Shown: in pieces, positions 5,832 through 56,930 of the stretch | Layout: every line of letters starts with the position of its first letter | How positions within the stretch are numbered: the stretch's first letter is position 1 | Assembly (NCBI GenBank): GCA_018816865.1 | Contig: JAHIUW010000004.1 | Location: forward strand, 1 to 64,000 | DNA from: Pseudomonadota bacterium | GTDB lineage: Bacteria; Desulfobacterota; Desulfovibrionia; Desulfovibrionales; Desulfovibrionaceae | Direction of reading: 5' to 3' | Length of the DNA: 64,000 nucleotides | Program-made: the position numbers and the translations under genes | Notes under the pieces: model-generated | Database searches by the model: none | What the model was told of the DNA's origin: nothing | Seen by the model: only the letters and a program-made list of their open reading frames with translations

Positions 5832-5907
5832 GCCAGCGTAGCTCAGTTGGTAGAGCAGCTGATTCGTAATCAGCAGGTCTGGAGTTCGACTCTCCACGCT
5901 GGCTCCA
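5832..5907 (+). tRNA. tRNA-Thr, anticodon CGT
   Basis: A complete cloverleaf can be drawn: acceptor GCCAGCG pairs with CGCTGGC, the D arm is GCTC/GAGC, the anticodon stem is GCTGA/TCAGC around the loop TTCGTAA, and the T arm is TGGAG/CTCCA around TTCGACT. The anticodon is CGT at 5865-5867, reading ACG threonine codons. The 3' CCA is encoded at 5905-5907. A strong terminator follows 11 bases later, so it is likely a monocistronic tRNA. Confidence 0.97.
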
Positions 5908-5979: not shown

Positions 5980-6558
5980 TCAGCGGGTGGCCAGGGTGTT
6001 TTTTGGTGTGGGCTTCAGGTAGACCACGGACATGGCGCTCATCTTCTTGTCGATCTCCCGTCCGGCTTCGTGGGCCCGGGCCTTGAGTTCGGAGAGTTCG
6101 CCGAAGGTGATGGCGTCGGTCAGGCAGACCTCAGCGCACACGGGCTTTTCTCCGAAAACCACACGCTCAAAGCACAGGTCGCACTTGTGGGCGTAGTTTT
6201 CGGCCACGTTGAACTGGATCACGTTGTAGGGACATTCCTCGATACACTTGCGCGCACCTGTGCACTTGGTTTTATCGATGCGCACGATGCCGGTCTGCGC
6301 ATCCTTGGCGATGGCCTCGGACGGACAGGCCTTGATGCACTGGGCGTTCTTGCAGTGTTGGCAGGGCACCACCCAACTGCGCGCGGTGATATGGGGGAAG
6401 GTGCCCTCACGGGCGCTTTCCACACGCAGGTAGTGCGGAATTTCCCCCGGCATGGCCCCGGCGTGGTCCACCAGCCCCTTGTTGTTGCGGCAGGCCACGA
6501 TGCAGGTCTTGCAGCCTATACAGCGGTCAAGGTCGATCATCAGACCTAGTTGTTTCAT
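5980..6558 (-). CDS. Four-cluster ferredoxin-like electron-transfer subunit of a molybdopterin oxidoreductase (DmsB/PhsB/NrfC type)
   Basis: A 192-residue iron-sulfur subunit. Cysteine groups for four [4Fe-4S] clusters are visible: CIGCKTCIVAC near residue 15, CQHCKNAQCIKAC near 70, CTGARKCIEEC near 100, and CDLCFERVVFGEKPVCAEVC near 125. In the DmsB/PhsB family this chain passes electrons between a partner and the catalytic Mo subunit. The gene begins 12 bases after the catalytic-subunit gene, so the two should form a complex. No export signal is seen, consistent with a cytoplasmic enzyme. No NrfD/PsrC-type quinone subunit is encoded alongside, so the electron partner is unknown. Confidence 0.9.
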   Translation of the reverse strand: MKQLGLMIDLDRCIGCKTCIVACRNNKGLVDHAGAMPGEIPHYLRVESAREGTFPHITARSWVVPCQHCKNAQCIKACPSEAIAKDAQTGIVRIDKTKCTGARKCIEECPYNVIQFNVAENYAHKCDLCFERVVFGEKPVCAEVCLTDAITFGELSELKARAHEAGREIDKKMSAMSVVYLKPTPKNTLATR

Positions 6559-6570
6559 AGCGAGCCTCCT

Positions 6571-8709
6571 TTAGGCGCTGAGCCGGACTCGGGTGGAAAC
6601 GTGCGATTCGCCGCCCACCACATCCTGCCACTTGAGGGTCATACCGGAATCGGGGATGAGCACGTTGTCGCTCACACCCTTGCCCGTGGTCGCCACGCGG
6701 CCAACGCTTGAGCCGAAACCGTGGTGCAGGCCGATGCAGTCGGGCCGGATGCGCTCGGTGAGCTTGGCCCGGACCTGCAACTGCCCGGTGCGCGAGGTCA
6801 GGGTCACGGTCTGGCCGTCCTTGATGCCCAGCTTCTTGGCCGTGGCGGAGTTGATGAGCGCAGGGTTCTCGAACATGCCACTCACCGGGTCGCGCAGTTG
6901 TGGATTGTTGTGTGTCCATTGGCCGGTGCCCTGGTGGAAGATGGTACGGTAGGAGATGAGCACAAAGGGGTAGTCCTGGGTGTCGGCCTCGTATTCCGCG
7001 GCCAGTCCGGGGCGGGGCAGGGCCTGATCAACGTCTTTGAGGTCTTCCCAGTAGAGATGGATCTTCTTGGACGGGGTGCCGAATCCGCCAGCATCCTTGT
7101 ACTTGTAGAAGCCCATGGTTCCGGGCGACCAGATGCCGCCCATTTCCTGGAGTTTCTTGACCGACAGGCCAAGTCCCGTGAGTTGGATATCGTAGAAGGC
7201 CACGTCGTCGGCGAAGTCGAAGTACTTGGGCTCCAGGCGCTTGCCCAATTCGATGAAGACCTCGTTGGAGTGACGACACTCGCCCGGGGCCTTCACCACC
7301 GGCTGGCGTAGCAGCACGCCCTGGCCGAAGTTGTACCACCAGGGCATGTACAGCAGTTCATAGCGCTCGAAGTAGGACTTGTCGGGCAGCACCAGATCGG
7401 CGTAGCGCGAGGTCTCCGAATGCATCAGTTCGTAGCTGACGAGCATCTCCAGGCGGTATTCCTCGCCGCCCTCGCCGGGCAGGCACACGGCCTTGCGCCA
7501 TTCCTCCTGGCCCATCTCGGTCATGGCCGGGTTGCACTCGGCGGTGATCAGGACCTTCAAGTCACCGTTCTTGATGGCCTGGGCCTCGTACCAGGTGGGT
7601 TCCATGATGAAGGAGTAATGGCTGAAAGCGTCCTTGTCCGGACCGGTCTTGTGCCAGCCGAGGGTACCCAGGTCCGGACCGGCGGGCGCGGGCTCGACCG
7701 GGGACATTGGCGTCAGATCGGGCAGGGGTTGGCCGCCGGGGTTGTCGATGTTGCCGGTGACGGCCAACAGGATGGTCCAGGCGTGGCCGAAATCCAGGGC
7801 CTGGCCGAGCATGATGCCCTTGAAACTGTCCACGCCCACCGAGGGGGCCTTGGCGCACATCTCGGCCAGCTTGCGGATATCCGCTTCGGGCACGCCGCAG
7901 ATGGCGCTCATGGCCTTGGGGGTCTTGTCCTTGAGGTAGGCCGTGAGCTGCTCAAAGTCGCCCTCGCGGACCCACTTCTCCACGAAGTCCTTGTCGTGCA
8001 GTCCGTTGGCCACGATGTGCTGGGTCATGCCCAGGAACAGGGCTGTGTCGCCCGAGGGTTTGATGGGAATCCACCAGTCGGCCTTGGCCGCGTCGGCGGT
8101 GAAGATCGGGTCGAGGACCACCAGCTTGGCGCCCCGGGCCTGTGCCTCCAGGATATCCCTGGGCACGGCGGCGTCGTCCAGACAGCCGAAGGCATGCCGC
8201 CCGGCCAGGATGATGATGCCGTCCTTGGGCACGGTGTCGAAGGCGGGCGGGATGTGGTGGTTGGGCACGCCGCCCATGGCCTTGATGAAGGCCACGATCT
8301 TGGCCGAATCGCAATGCGGCAGGGCGGTATTGATGAATCCGCCGTAGGCGTTGAGGAAGCGCCACTTGGGGTCGGTGATGGAGTGCGGGAAGAAGCTCGC
8401 GGTGAGCTTGTGGGCCTCGCCCTTGGCCTTGAGAGCCTTGAGCTTGCTGGTCAGCATGTCCAGCGCCTCGTCCCAGGAGATTTCCTTGAACTTGCCCTCG
8501 CCGCGTTTGCCCACCCGTTTCAGGGGCTTTGTCAGGCGGTCCTTGTTATACTGCAGGGAGATTCCGGCCATGCCCTTGACGCAGGCCTTGCCCCGGGCCT
8601 TGGGGTTGCCCCGGATCTCCTTGACCACACCATCCTCGACGTGCGCCAGGATGGCGCACTCGGCCTTGCATTGGTAGCAGGCTGTGGGTATCCACCCGTC
8701 CTTGACCAT
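6571..8709 (-). CDS. Molybdopterin-dependent oxidoreductase, catalytic subunit (PhsA/PsrA-like, substrate unknown)
   Basis: Catalytic subunit of the DMSO-reductase superfamily, 712 residues. The N terminus has the [4Fe-4S] motif C11-x2-C14-x3-C18-x24-C43, and the molybdopterin domains follow, ending with the C-terminal dinucleotide-binding barrel (HNNPQLRDPVSG, LTSRTGQLQVRAKLTERI). Cys133, in ALPHCDSAK, falls where a Mo ligand is expected, as in thiosulfate, polysulfide and arsenate reductases; this assignment is inferred. There is no twin-arginine signal, unlike typical PhsA/PsrA proteins, so the enzyme should be cytoplasmic. It lies between a small membrane-protein gene and its Fe-S subunit. 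Substrates such as a sulfur oxyanion, polysulfide, nitrite or formate cannot be distinguished here. Confidence 0.88.
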   Translation of the reverse strand: MVKDGWIPTACYQCKAECAILAHVEDGVVKEIRGNPKARGKACVKGMAGISLQYNKDRLTKPLKRVGKRGEGKFKEISWDEALDMLTSKLKALKAKGEAHKLTASFFPHSITDPKWRFLNAYGGFINTALPHCDSAKIVAFIKAMGGVPNHHIPPAFDTVPKDGIIILAGRHAFGCLDDAAVPRDILEAQARGAKLVVLDPIFTADAAKADWWIPIKPSGDTALFLGMTQHIVANGLHDKDFVEKWVREGDFEQLTAYLKDKTPKAMSAICGVPEADIRKLAEMCAKAPSVGVDSFKGIMLGQALDFGHAWTILLAVTGNIDNPGGQPLPDLTPMSPVEPAPAGPDLGTLGWHKTGPDKDAFSHYSFIMEPTWYEAQAIKNGDLKVLITAECNPAMTEMGQEEWRKAVCLPGEGGEEYRLEMLVSYELMHSETSRYADLVLPDKSYFERYELLYMPWWYNFGQGVLLRQPVVKAPGECRHSNEVFIELGKRLEPKYFDFADDVAFYDIQLTGLGLSVKKLQEMGGIWSPGTMGFYKYKDAGGFGTPSKKIHLYWEDLKDVDQALPRPGLAAEYEADTQDYPFVLISYRTIFHQGTGQWTHNNPQLRDPVSGMFENPALINSATAKKLGIKDGQTVTLTSRTGQLQVRAKLTERIRPDCIGLHHGFGSSVGRVATTGKGVSDNVLIPDSGMTLKWQDVVGGESHVSTRVRLSA

Positions 8710-8790: not shown

Positions 8791-8925
8791 TTACTCGTCT
8801 TTCTCAGGCCACTTGCCAGGGTAGCCCGGATGCTTCGAACGATGGCTGCGCACGGTGATCCAGACCACGCCGACAAAGCCGATAAACAGTCCCCAGATAA
8901 CTGGATTCAAGGCTGAGTAGTCCAC
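8791..8925 (-). CDS. Small single-pass membrane protein (44 residues)
   Basis: This very short gene starts with GTG at 8925, six bases after an AAGGAG that overlaps the stop of the upstream channel gene, so translation is well supported. The product has one hydrophobic segment (ALNPVIWGLFIGFVGVVWIT) and a basic, Pro/Lys-rich tail ending in KWPEKDE. It sits 10 bases after the channel gene and about 80 bases before the Mo enzyme gene. I do not recognise a family. By position it could anchor the enzyme or modulate the channel. Confidence 0.6.
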   Translation of the reverse strand: MDYSALNPVIWGLFIGFVGVVWITVRSHRSKHPGYPGKWPEKDE

Positions 8926-8935
8926 ACATGGCTCC

Positions 8936-9817
8936 TTACAGCTTGAGCATGAAATTCGTCTTTTCTTTATATAACTCGGCGACCTTGGCAGGGTTGGACA
9001 CCAGCTGGAAGGGGATGCCCACAAAGAGGATGCCACCCACCAGGTTGCCAAGCACCGTGTACAGTTGATTGAAGGCCCAGCCATACTGGCCGAACCCCCA
9101 ATGCAGCAGCACCGGATCGGTCAGGCCCATGCGGGCGGCCTCGGCCAGAAACAGGTCTTGTTGAAACAGGGGCAGAGCCAGAAAGCCGATGTTGGCGATG
9201 CAGTGCTCGGTCATGCCGGCCACGAAGGCCAGCGGTCCGTAGGCGGCCATGGCGATCTTGGCCGCATCGCCCTCGGCCTTGACGAAAAGCACCGCTGCGG
9301 TCTGGAGCATCCAGGTACAGACAATGCCCATAACGAAGATCTGTGTGGCCGTGTAGCCCATCTTGGCCACGCCGATGGCGTGTGATTTGGCCAGCCAGGG
9401 CCAGGCCGCATAGGCCCCGCTCAGGGAGATGAGCCACATGAAGAACATGCTCCCCAGGAAATTTCCCAGATAGCCCAGCAGGATGCCCCAGGAAAATCGG
9501 CCCCAGCCGATGCGGCCATGAAATACGCCGATGATGCCGATGTACATGTCCGCCGTGACCAGGGTCATGCCCGAAACCATGATCACCACCAAGGAAAACA
9601 TGAACACCAGCCCCATGAGCAGGTTCGCCAGGCCCGGCGCCAGATTCTCGGCCACTCCGGCGGAGACGGACAGGGCCAGGGTCGCTCCGAAGACCACCAT
9701 GGCCCCGCCTGTGAAGGCGGATATCAAGTAGGCCAGGGGCCTGTGGCGGATCATGTCCCACTTGTAGGTGCAGATGTCCGCAACGCGGACCACCAGATCG
9801 TCGATGTTGGCGGGCAT
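8936..9817 (-). CDS. Formate/nitrite transporter (FNT) family channel
   Basis: A 293-residue inner-membrane channel of the FocA/NirC/HSC family. It shows the six-helix pattern and conserved stretches of the family: TGGAMVVFGATLALSVSAG near the first half-repeat, GNFLGSMFFMWLISLSGAY, the conserved His in MTEHCIANIGF, and GNLVGGILFVG near the end. Members carry small monovalent anions (formate, nitrite, hydrosulfide). The AGGAGG site directly before the ATG is strong. It is the first gene after the sigma-factor fusion and heads the Mo-enzyme genes, so it probably imports the enzyme's substrate or exports its product. Confidence 0.92.
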   Translation of the reverse strand: MPANIDDLVVRVADICTYKWDMIRHRPLAYLISAFTGGAMVVFGATLALSVSAGVAENLAPGLANLLMGLVFMFSLVVIMVSGMTLVTADMYIGIIGVFHGRIGWGRFSWGILLGYLGNFLGSMFFMWLISLSGAYAAWPWLAKSHAIGVAKMGYTATQIFVMGIVCTWMLQTAAVLFVKAEGDAAKIAMAAYGPLAFVAGMTEHCIANIGFLALPLFQQDLFLAEAARMGLTDPVLLHWGFGQYGWAFNQLYTVLGNLVGGILFVGIPFQLVSNPAKVAELYKEKTNFMLKL

Positions 9818-9899
9818 GCCTCCTCCTGAATGCTATTCTGCCTTGGCCTTTGCCTGGGGCTTGCATGGAGAAGAGCCTGAGAAAGGGAAAAAGGTTCGG

Positions 9900-11306
9900 T
9901 TATTTTTGGAGGGAATCGTAGGCCATGAAGGCATCCAGGTTGCAGGGCCGCTTGAGGGCGCCCGCGGCCAGCGCCAACCCCATGACCTGTTCCGCCCGCC
10001 CCCTGTCCGGTGTTAGGTCGGAAAAGGTGATGTAGCCCTTGTTCAGGATATGCTCTGCGATATCCCGATCCACCCCGGTATACCGTGCCTGAATGTCTGC
10101 GGCCCCAGCGGAATTAAGCCTGATATATGCCCTCGCATCTTCCAGGTCCGCGAGAAACTGACGCAGCAGGTCTGGCTGGTTTCGCATGAAGTGTTCGGTG
10201 ATTACGACAACGCAGCAGACGTGGCCCGGAGACAAGTCTCCGGAACGGGCCAGAATACGCCCCTCGCCCTGGGCCACGGATGTAGTGTTCCAGGGTTCCG
10301 AACAGAAGAAGCCGTCAATCTCGTGGCGGGCCAGGGAGCCAATGACGTAGGAGGGGCTGATGAAGCGGGTGGTCAGGTCGCTCGTGCCCTGCTTGTCCGA
10401 CGGGCTGTCTCCGCCAAGCAGGGCACGAAGCAGCAGGCTGTGGGTGGAGATGGAATGCGGCAAGGCCATGGTCGAACCCATTCCGATGTGGCGCGTGGCG
10501 ACGCCCTTGCGAACTGTGACCGCGCTGCCGTCGTGGTGACCATCCAGGACGTAACGGATGGGCAGGCCCTGGTTGTGCAGGCACATGGCCAGGGGTGCCA
10601 TGATAAAGGCTGCTTCCAACAGACCGCCCGTGAGGGCTTTGACCAGACGGCCCCAGGACAGGAATTTGGAGAGGTGCAGGTCGTAGGTTGCCTTGTCGTG
10701 TCTGTGGTGGGTGACCATGCCCAACAAATGGTCGGAGATGGGCAGATAGCCCAGGCGTACGGAACGTCCGTTTCGGGCGCCGAATTCGGCTATGATTCTG
10801 TTTCGGGCGTCATGGATGCGCCGCTTGATCGTTCCCTTGGGAAGTTGAAGCTGGTTGGTGATGTCCTTGTAGGAATGTCCGTGGACGAAGCGCAGGATGC
10901 AGGCTTCCCGGGCCACGCCAGGCAGGGCGGCCAGGATGCGCCGGATCATGAGTTGGTCCAGGTGGCAGGTGTAGAGATGAAAGGGGTCTGTGCCGTCTCC
11001 GGCCGGGATGTCCGCTGCTTCTACTGAGAAGGGGAGCAACCCTTCCTGACGGGTGCGGATGCGCTTGCAGTGGCGCAGCAGGATGGTCCGGAACCAGCCT
11101 GGGAAGGCATCGTGATCCTGGAGCATGGGCAGCTTGATGAAGGCCGCCAGAAAGGCCTCCTGCACGGCGTCCTCGGCCAGAGAGCGGTCGTGCAACTGGG
11201 CGGTGGCCAAGGCCATGGCCATGTCTTTGAACATGAGCATGATCTCGCCAAAGGTGTTCTTGTTACCAGCCAGGACCTTTTGGATATGGTCGCGATAGCT
11301 GTCCAT
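9900..11306 (-). CDS. ECF-type sigma factor fused to an NrtA/SsuA-like ligand-binding domain
   Basis: A 468-residue protein with two unrelated halves in one frame. Residues 17-85 are sigma region 2 (AEDAVQEAFLAAF, then GWFRTILLRHCKRIRTR), and residues 119-172 are sigma region 4 with its helix-turn-helix (YKDITNQLQLPKGTIKRRI). From about residue 183 to the end it reads as the type-2 periplasmic-binding fold of nitrate/bicarbonate/sulfonate proteins: VRLGYLPISDHLL, then GLLEAAFIMAPLAMCL. There is no signal peptide or membrane segment, so the binding domain is in the cytoplasm. No anti-sigma gene is adjacent. I infer a one-component sigma factor gated by a small anion and acting on the operon 82 bases downstream. 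ATG 11306 is chosen because GGAGG precedes it closely; ATG 11318 is an alternative. Confidence 0.85.
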   Translation of the reverse strand: MDSYRDHIQKVLAGNKNTFGEIMLMFKDMAMALATAQLHDRSLAEDAVQEAFLAAFIKLPMLQDHDAFPGWFRTILLRHCKRIRTRQEGLLPFSVEAADIPAGDGTDPFHLYTCHLDQLMIRRILAALPGVAREACILRFVHGHSYKDITNQLQLPKGTIKRRIHDARNRIIAEFGARNGRSVRLGYLPISDHLLGMVTHHRHDKATYDLHLSKFLSWGRLVKALTGGLLEAAFIMAPLAMCLHNQGLPIRYVLDGHHDGSAVTVRKGVATRHIGMGSTMALPHSISTHSLLLRALLGGDSPSDKQGTSDLTTRFISPSYVIGSLARHEIDGFFCSEPWNTTSVAQGEGRILARSGDLSPGHVCCVVVITEHFMRNQPDLLRQFLADLEDARAYIRLNSAGAADIQARYTGVDRDIAEHILNKGYITFSDLTPDRGRAEQVMGLALAAGALKRPCNLDAFMAYDSLQK

Positions 11307-28143: not shown

Positions 28144-29988
<1,845 letters not shown>

Positions 29989-56270: not shown

Positions 56271-56930
56271 CTAGGCTTCCTTCTTTTCTTTGGTCTTGGC
56301 GCGCAGCCAGTCGTACCAGGCACCCATGCCCTCTGCGGTCTTGCAGGAGATGGGGAAGATATCGAGGTTCTTGTTCAGTGCCTTGGCAAACTTGGAGGCG
56401 CGTTCCAGGCTGAAGTCCACGTAAGGCAACAGATCTGTCTTGTTCAGCAGCATGACCTGGGATTCGGCGAACAGCAGGGGGTATTTCTCGGGTTTGTCGT
56501 CGCCCTCGGTCACGGACAGCAGGGAGATTTTGTAGTCTTCACCGACCTCGAACTCGGCCGGGCAGACCAGGTTGCCCACGTTCTCCACGAACAGGATGTC
56601 CAGACCCTCGAGGTCCAGGGAGTCCAGGGCCTGGAGCACCATGGAACTGTCCAGATGGCAGGCCCCATCGGTGTTGATCTGTACGGCCTGGGCCCCGGTG
56701 GCGGCCACGCGGCGGGCGTCGTTGTCGGTGACCAGGTCGCCTTCGATAACGGCCATCTTCAGCTCGTCGCGCAGGTCGGTCAGGGTGCGCTCCAAGGTGG
56801 AGGTTTTGCCCGAGCCCGGCGAACTGATGAGGTTCAGGACCAGGATCTGTTTGGCCTTGAAAATCTTGCGCAGCTGGTTGGAAATACGGTCGTTGGCTTC
56901 CAGAATATTGCGGATGACGGGGATATCCAT
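56271..56930 (-). CDS. hypB: Hydrogenase/urease nickel-incorporation GTPase HypB
   Basis: A 219-residue GTPase that helps load nickel into hydrogenase. The P-loop is ISSPGSGKTS. The switch and GTP contacts lie in VIEGDL, ENVGNLVCPAEF and LLNKTDLLP. The N-terminal His-rich nickel store of some HypB proteins is missing. AAGGAG precedes the ATG. It follows hypA by 80 bases, so the two likely form one unit. Confidence 0.95.
   Translation of the reverse strand: MDIPVIRNILEANDRISNQLRKIFKAKQILVLNLISSPGSGKTSTLERTLTDLRDELKMAVIEGDLVTDNDARRVAATGAQAVQINTDGACHLDSSMVLQALDSLDLEGLDILFVENVGNLVCPAEFEVGEDYKISLLSVTEGDDKPEKYPLLFAESQVMLLNKTDLLPYVDFSLERASKFAKALNKNLDIFPISCKTAEGMGAWYDWLRAKTKEKKEA

Follow-up and report, generated by a model that had tools for sequence, protein, structure and literature searches.

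We identified, in the 64,000-nucleotide stretch of DNA analysed here (the window), a single gene that joins an ECF sigma factor to a cytoplasmic solute-binding domain and lies directly upstream of a cassette encoding a transporter, a molybdopterin oxidoreductase and a ferredoxin-type subunit. This architecture, which belongs to sulfate-reducing bacteria, and its local circuit are real, conserved and well supported. As judged from sequence and predicted structure, the protein is probably a dedicated, ligand-gated sigma factor for the neighbouring operon. The features of the locus are given below (MOX, molybdopterin oxidoreductase; FER, 4Fe-4S subunit; FNT and HPP, transporter families).

9900..11306, minus strand: fusion protein, ECF sigma plus NMT1_2/NrtA-SsuA-type binding domain (open reading frame, Pfam, predicted structure)
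9889..9899, minus strand: -35 box CCGAACCTTTT, predicted target of the fusion sigma (motif alignment, 37 gaps)
9872..9877, minus strand: -10-like box GGCTCT of the same predicted promoter (motif alignment)
8936..9817, minus strand: FNT (formate/nitrite transporter family) channel, 293 aa (PF01226, E 2.5e-42, Pfam)
8791..8925, minus strand: small open reading frame, 44 aa, GTG start, one likely membrane helix by eye (no Pfam match)
6571..8709, minus strand: MOX, 712 aa, PsrA/PhsA-like (Pfam, NCBIfam and PDB profiles; in 36/37 loci)
5980..6558, minus strand: FER, 4Fe-4S ferredoxin-type subunit, 192 aa (Fer4_11, E 1.2e-25; in 36/37 loci)

The open reading frame of the fusion runs on the minus strand from an ATG at 11306 to a stop at 9900 and encodes 468 residues, with sigma regions 2 and 4 in residues ~1-178 and the binding domain in residues ~180-468. 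Pfam placed Sigma70_r2 at residues 28-87 (27.3 bits, cut-off 24), Sigma70_r4_2 at residues 119-170 (37.3 bits, cut-off 25.7) and NMT1_2 at residues 179-403 (94.8 bits, cut-off 24.7), the last being the sole Pfam match in the C-terminal half at E <= 0.01. Together with the score against TIGR02937 (47.0 bits, cut-off 42.9), the two sigma matches identify the N-terminal half as an ECF sigma factor. In an AlphaFold2 model built from 30 homologues (mean pLDDT 84), the final sigma-4 helix stops at residue 178 and strand 1 of the binding fold begins at residue 182, leaving a linker of about three residues; the placement of the domains relative to each other is not reliable, because the pTM is 0.64. 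Structure alignment matched residues 180-468 to 3un6 with a Z score of 36.9 (2.5 Å over 281 residues), followed by NrtA (33.7), the CmpBCD regulatory domain with nitrate (33.3), CmpA (31.5), NrtC (30.8), TauA (27.6) and SsuA (27.4). An earlier note, made from the sequence of this DNA, had proposed an ECF sigma fused to a cytoplasmic type-2 binding fold, with the halves at residues 17-172 and 183-468. The Pfam scores above cut-off, the model and the Z score of 36.9 bear this out, and the proposed limits are correct to within about ten residues. A C-terminal half without a periplasmic-binding fold had been named there as one of three ways to refute the proposal; the fold claim was right, since this half aligns on 3un6 (Z 36.9), NrtA (Z 33.7) and the Cmp proteins.

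At E <= 1e-20, the fusion is present in 32 of 348 genomes of Desulfovibrionales; the matches number 33, two copies being found in the home genome. One of these (L051) begins at a contig edge and comprises the binding half only, its sigma half lying off the contig. Among the matches listed from a sample of 395 genomes of the phylum, those covering both halves were confined to the home genome and three further genomes of its family; the remaining ones were a binding protein alone or a sigma alone. A scan with the binding half against one genome per species returned 23 loci, 19 of them already in our set (titled as Desulfovibrionales members or unplaced MAGs) and four new, from a Desulfobacteraceae MAG (Eth-SRB1), a Desulfobacterales MAG, a Proteobacteria MAG and a Desulfocapsa MAG. 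All four carry the fusion (Pfam was run on three of them); Desulfobacteraceae belong to Desulfobacterales and Desulfocapsa to Desulfobulbales. The distinct fusion loci thus total 37, from three orders; wherever the gene is complete (36 loci), it includes the binding half in frame. The same fusion across 37 loci rules out an assembly chimera. That the two halves might be separate genes in close relatives, raised earlier as a way for the proposal to fail, is likewise rejected: the searches of the order and the phylum found no close relative of this kind and, among the matches listed, those outside the fusion loci cover one half only. We also considered viral origin and plasmid spread. The one IMG/VR match is a near copy of L031 (about 96-98%) that contains the fusion, HPP and part of MOX. 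Of 209 plasmid records matching the fusion query, none covers more than 80% of it, and the best 15 of the 209 matches begin at residue 160 or later.

The fusion gene comes first in each of the 37 loci, and the cassette genes found lie on the same strand. The gene order is fusion-FNT-MOX-FER in 13 loci, fusion-HPP-MOX-FER in 8 and fusion-MOX-FER-HPP in 15; in the remaining locus (L036), the contig stops after part of HPP, before MOX. The channel in the window belongs to the FNT family (145.4 bits against PF01226, cut-off 34.6) and scores under the cut-offs of the FocA and NirC equivalog models. HPP was assigned by Pfam TM_HPP (E 1e-26 and 5e-22 in two examples). FNT and HPP occur together in none of the 37 loci. 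The proposed company of FNT and Mo-oxidoreductase genes therefore holds for the Mo enzyme (36/37) and in part for FNT (13/37), HPP being found in 24/37, and the 82-bp gap between the fusion and FNT genes is as the earlier note gave it. Members of the FNT family transport formate and nitrite, as the family name says. A plant HPP protein is a nitrite transporter candidate, according to the consulted part of PMC4137279. That FNT and HPP replace each other in the same operon hints at a small monovalent anion as the compound transported. Our literature search, mostly of non-subscription papers, found no report of an FNT/HPP-MOX-FER cassette.

The 44-aa reading frame lies between FNT and MOX, and stretches resembling it occur in L039, in L123 (the L038 contig) and in L117, which lacks the fusion; all three loci are of the FNT type. 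A tRNA gene at 5832-5904 (plus strand) lies just beyond the 3' end of the cassette and would suit a mobile insertion. A scan of the DNA for sigma-70 promoters and terminators gave results near chance.

Upstream of the fusion gene, no anti-sigma family recurs in a Pfam search of 68 predicted proteins, which come from home-made gene calls. Among the 25 of 79 families listed, none is an anti-sigma family and the commonest matches 4 of the 68 proteins; the other families match one protein at most. The earlier proposal that there is no adjacent anti-sigma gene is supported to this extent. The fusion thus has the make-up of a C-terminally extended ECF sigma factor: an extension after sigma-4 and no neighbouring anti-sigma gene.

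Some cassettes lack the fusion gene. MOX is present in 37 of the 348 Desulfovibrionales genomes, with 40 rows that represent 39 loci because one gene appears split over two contigs, and the fusion is absent from seven of these 39 (L113, L114, L115, L116, L117, L118 and L119/L120). Two further loci without it (L153 and L154) come from other families of the phylum, giving a lacking set of nine. The genes flanking L113-L115 match those of the fusion-bearing loci L034-L037 (translations compared by eye), so the fusion gene comes and goes at a fixed position. That cassettes exist without it in 7/39 loci indicates that the sigma is not indispensable. At L118:6335-7500, a second, fusion-less MOX copy has a transposase-like gene pair directly upstream, at the place where the sigma gene would lie (by eye).

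The gaps that follow the fusion gene share a two-box pattern, SSKAACYTTTT ([GC][GC][GT]AAC[CT]TTTT), then about 11-13 nt, then GGCTCT. A permissive expression detects the -35 box in 37/37 gaps and a stricter one in 34/35; its forms are CCGAAC/GCGAAC, GGGAAC and GGTAAC. GGAAC-type -35 boxes are typical of ECF promoters, and an ECF-type -35 box lies upstream of the target operon in all 37 loci. When one expression was applied equally to both sets, over the 400 bases that precede the cassette, the two-box site was found in 31/37 fusion loci (missing from L038, L052, L053, L054, L057 and L125) versus 0/9 fusion-less loci, and the -35 box alone in 37/37 versus 2/9. Both fusion-less matches (L118, 52 bases before the gene; L153, 30 bases) lack the second box, as do looser 10-mers in the fusion-less L115 (212 bases before the gene) and L119 (223 bases).

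The two-box form occurs in 28/35 gaps, whereas 1000 first-order random versions gave 0.047 on average and 3 at most. Over 512,935 bp of 32 loci, the two-box expression gave 30 matches: 25 placed in gaps by script, two more placed there by position (L035 and L045) and three elsewhere. In the 64-kb window, the permissive two-box expression matches three times, at the promoter, at 56837 and at 29096. In the home genome (3,638,116 bp), the exact form of the window occurs once, at C17:9872-9898 on the minus strand, in its gap; the form of the second fusion copy also occurs once, at C32:82732-82758, in its own gap, and reversed-pattern controls for both exact forms gave 0 matches in that genome. The first two-box expression, for which 30 loci had been used, matched 30/35 gaps, including 4/4 loci outside its training set. 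The expression counts are partly circular, because most of these loci had served to define the expressions; independent checks are the uniqueness in the home genome, the nine fusion-less loci and the four loci unused for the first expression.

The second base of the -35 box covaries with the protein. A C at the second -35 base goes with the sigma-4 helix GTxKRR in 9/9 loci and a G with GTx[KR]K[RH] in 21/21, residue 162 being Arg with C and Lys with G. Four further loci fit this residue-162 rule, for a total of 34/34. The Fisher value of 7e-8 for 30 loci ignores descent, the 30 sequences forming 22 clusters at 80% identity, and the Arg/Lys-C/G split may reflect only a few events. The covariation points to this -35 box as the partner of the sigma in the fusion. 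The home genome itself holds two cassettes of different clades, one in C17 (window) and one at C32:81260-86110, with MOX proteins 62% identical and each with its own -35 variant. Taken as sequence evidence, these patterns make it very likely that the fusion sigma reads the predicted promoter. An autoregulatory site before the fusion gene itself was rejected: within 300 bases upstream, none of 35 loci has a two-box site. With no promoter copy found before the sigma gene, control should be post-translational.

We propose that the fusion acts as a one-component, ligand-gated initiation factor. Together with RNA polymerase, the ECF sigma at its N terminus would recognise one type of promoter, which lies in the gap separating the fusion gene from the operon under its control. 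The C-terminal binding domain, in the cytoplasm and joined to the sigma-4 helix by only ~three residues, would sense a small molecule. In the empty, open state, this domain would keep sigma-2/sigma-4 inactive; ligand binding would close the domain and release the sigma, such that the transporter (FNT or HPP), MOX and FER would be made only when the compound is inside the cell. The cell would thereby maintain a standing pool of sigma that its own binding domain, while empty, keeps inactive and that ligand sets free. This appears the simplest reading because there is no recurring anti-sigma gene, no autoregulatory site was found and there is one dedicated target. We consider it likely that the C-terminal domain is a ligand-responsive regulator; that the empty rather than the bound form inhibits the sigma is a choice of direction that we favour on balance.

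The binding half is the better conserved part of the protein, with 37 invariant of 282 columns and a mean identity of 0.50, versus 9 invariant of 143 columns and 0.42 in the sigma core. Its invariant residues include D192 H193, H257 H258, G260 S261, S287 T288 H289, C335, P338 W339, H362 and C364 C365, and we take these motifs to line the ligand cleft. The resulting cleft signature (HH, STH, EPW, HxCC) differs from those of the nitrate and bicarbonate relatives. Compared with the CmpC regulatory domain, the fusion keeps the S and H of STH, EPW and H362, and has His258 and Cys365 at the Arg and Lys positions of CmpC. The Lys aligned to Cys365 presumably contacts nitrate in NrtA. Because of these two replacements, binding of nitrate in the NrtA manner seems unlikely; another small anion or a metal-linked anion is a candidate ligand.

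The wealth of invariant His, Cys and Asp residues (D192 H193, H257 H258, H289, C335, H362, C364 C365) might instead mean that the domain takes a metal or a thiol-reactive species, making the protein a metal- or redox-gated sigma like CorE. The closest solved relative, 3un6, is titled zinc-bound, and metals gate CorE by way of the Cys-rich extension at its C terminus (PMC8999054, in the part consulted). However, the zinc of 3un6 may stem from crystallisation, there is no metal-handling family among the conserved cassette genes, and a related HxCC signature also occurs in stand-alone binding proteins and in REC-NMT1_2-CheW proteins, which suggests a common small solute. Among 23 binding domains outside fusions, HxCC is found in 16 and SS in its place in five, and L103 and L112 show CC in a setting that differs slightly (by eye); those in which the motif was found have Arg or Lys at the His258 position. 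We therefore regard metal or redox gating as unlikely.

Still less probable is a scaffold, in which the domain would dock the sigma to the transporter or the enzyme and ligand would play no role. In CmpC and NrtC, a transporter ATPase does bear a cytoplasmic regulatory domain of similar type, and the extensions of ECF42 are predicted to work by protein interaction (PMC8999054, same part). Yet the invariant motifs align with motifs common to the CmpC regulatory domain, and the same domain is paired with two transporter families, FNT and HPP. A further alternative, in which the sigma is constitutively active and its binding half a functionless relic of an ancestral fusion, is very improbable: the fusion gene is missing from some cassettes, but conservation in the binding half (37 invariant columns in 30 sequences) exceeds that in the sigma half, and all 36 loci with the whole gene keep the binding half in frame.

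Under the preferred ligand-gated reading, clues to the ligand come from genomic context. The neighbourhoods of nine stand-alone binding proteins include several with ABC-type genes (by eye), and in two of them (L094:7001-9840 and L103:6369-9375) the binding protein and ABC-type genes adjoin a CO dehydrogenase gene, its product being an anaerobic CO dehydrogenase catalytic subunit (TIGR01702, above cut-off). After the cassette in L042, L046 and L047 lies an FmdE-MoCF_biosynth protein (Pfam on the L047 copy). From the CO dehydrogenase and FmdE-MoCF_biosynth links and the FNT gene, we would favour a one-carbon or nitrite-type anion. Our tentative candidate is a small monovalent anion of the formate/nitrite type, with a chance we place slightly short of even.

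MOX shares 59-82% identity with the window copy in 21 aligned relatives, and its best PDB profile match is PsrA (2vpw, E 1.8e-73), followed by acetylene hydratase and a formate dehydrogenase subunit. It falls under the cut-off of every NCBIfam model among the 25 listed, and scores 273.5 bits against the PhsA model, whose cut-off is 694. C133 and H109 of MOX align with positions 173 (Cys) and 145 (His) of the PsrA chain, as counted by hand, and the invariant F296 aligns with position 332 (Arg); we take these three PsrA positions to be functional residues. PsrA/PhsA reductases consist of an exported enzyme with an NrfD-type membrane subunit; by eye, MOX has no export signal, and the conserved cassette genes are only FNT or HPP, MOX and FER. 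Formate dehydrogenases have an active site with a Cys/Sec-His pair and an Arg, and the invariant C133-D134 together with F296 reject such an identity for MOX. Acetylene hydratase is rejected by K15, which the PDB profile alignment places where the catalytic Asp is expected, presumably after the second cluster Cys. The identity of the ligand would point to the substrate class of this conserved enzyme, which no family model used here names.

Each half of the proposed switch has a precedent, one in extended ECF sigma factors and the other in NasS. The extension of ECF41 is a SnoaL-like domain. According to the part of PMC8999054 consulted, ECF sigma factors most commonly sense via an anti-sigma partner, and at least 26 ECF groups have C-terminal extensions. 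The fusion resembles these extended factors in its sigma-2/sigma-4 core, the lack of a neighbouring anti-sigma gene and a C-terminal domain expected to gate (PMC8999054, in part). It differs from them in that a complete type-2 binding fold, about 290 residues long, forms its extension; the SnoaL, TPR and Cys-rich extensions of ECF41, ECF42 and ECF238 (CorE) are absent, NMT1_2 being the only Pfam domain there. No type-2 binding-fold extension is named in that part of PMC8999054, a comparison that leaves the 2021 ECF classification aside.

NasS is a cytoplasmic NrtA-like sensor that releases the RNA-binding NasT and keeps all nitrate-coordinating residues (PMC3795266, in the part consulted). Like NasS, the fusion would be a cytoplasmic NrtA-like sensor controlling an oxyanion-handling operon. 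Unlike NasS, a separate protein that acts on NasT, its sensor is covalently joined to the sigma, and it has His and Cys at the Arg and Lys positions of CmpC. Neither source, within the parts consulted, describes a combination of sigma and binding fold, and a literature search (titles and the start of abstracts, mostly of non-subscription papers) found no sigma fused to an NMT1 or solute-binding domain. The C-terminal regulatory domains of CmpC and NrtC have the same cytoplasmic fold (Z about 31 to 33), but are fused to a transporter ATPase rather than to a transcription factor.

It seems rather likely that the fusion founds an ECF group not described before: a whole ABC-transporter-type binding protein and a sigma forming a one-protein switch from ligand to promoter, with one target promoter per copy, a -35 specificity that has diverged between clades along with the sigma and two insulated copies able to share a cell. 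A sigma factor with a built-in solute-binding protein would be a minimal, portable sensor. As the ligand-driven closure of the binding fold is well studied, release of the sigma by domain movement is directly testable. As the promoter pattern occurs once in the home genome, and the second fusion copy there has another -35 box, the two copies might constitute an orthogonal pair of natural origin.

The REC-NMT1_2-CheW proteins represent another case in which this binding family serves as a cytoplasmic sensor; they account for 8 of the 23 non-fusion binding domains (L106:5388-7340, L107, L108, L109, L110, L098:14761-16698, L101:3886-5805 and L102:7820-9856). No publication on this architecture was apparent by title among the literature matches listed. 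These three-domain proteins of about 650 aa (Pfam on L106) belong to the same phylum and, like the fusion, join the same binding family, with a related signature, to signalling domains; their output is of the chemotaxis type, in contrast to transcription initiation for the fusion.
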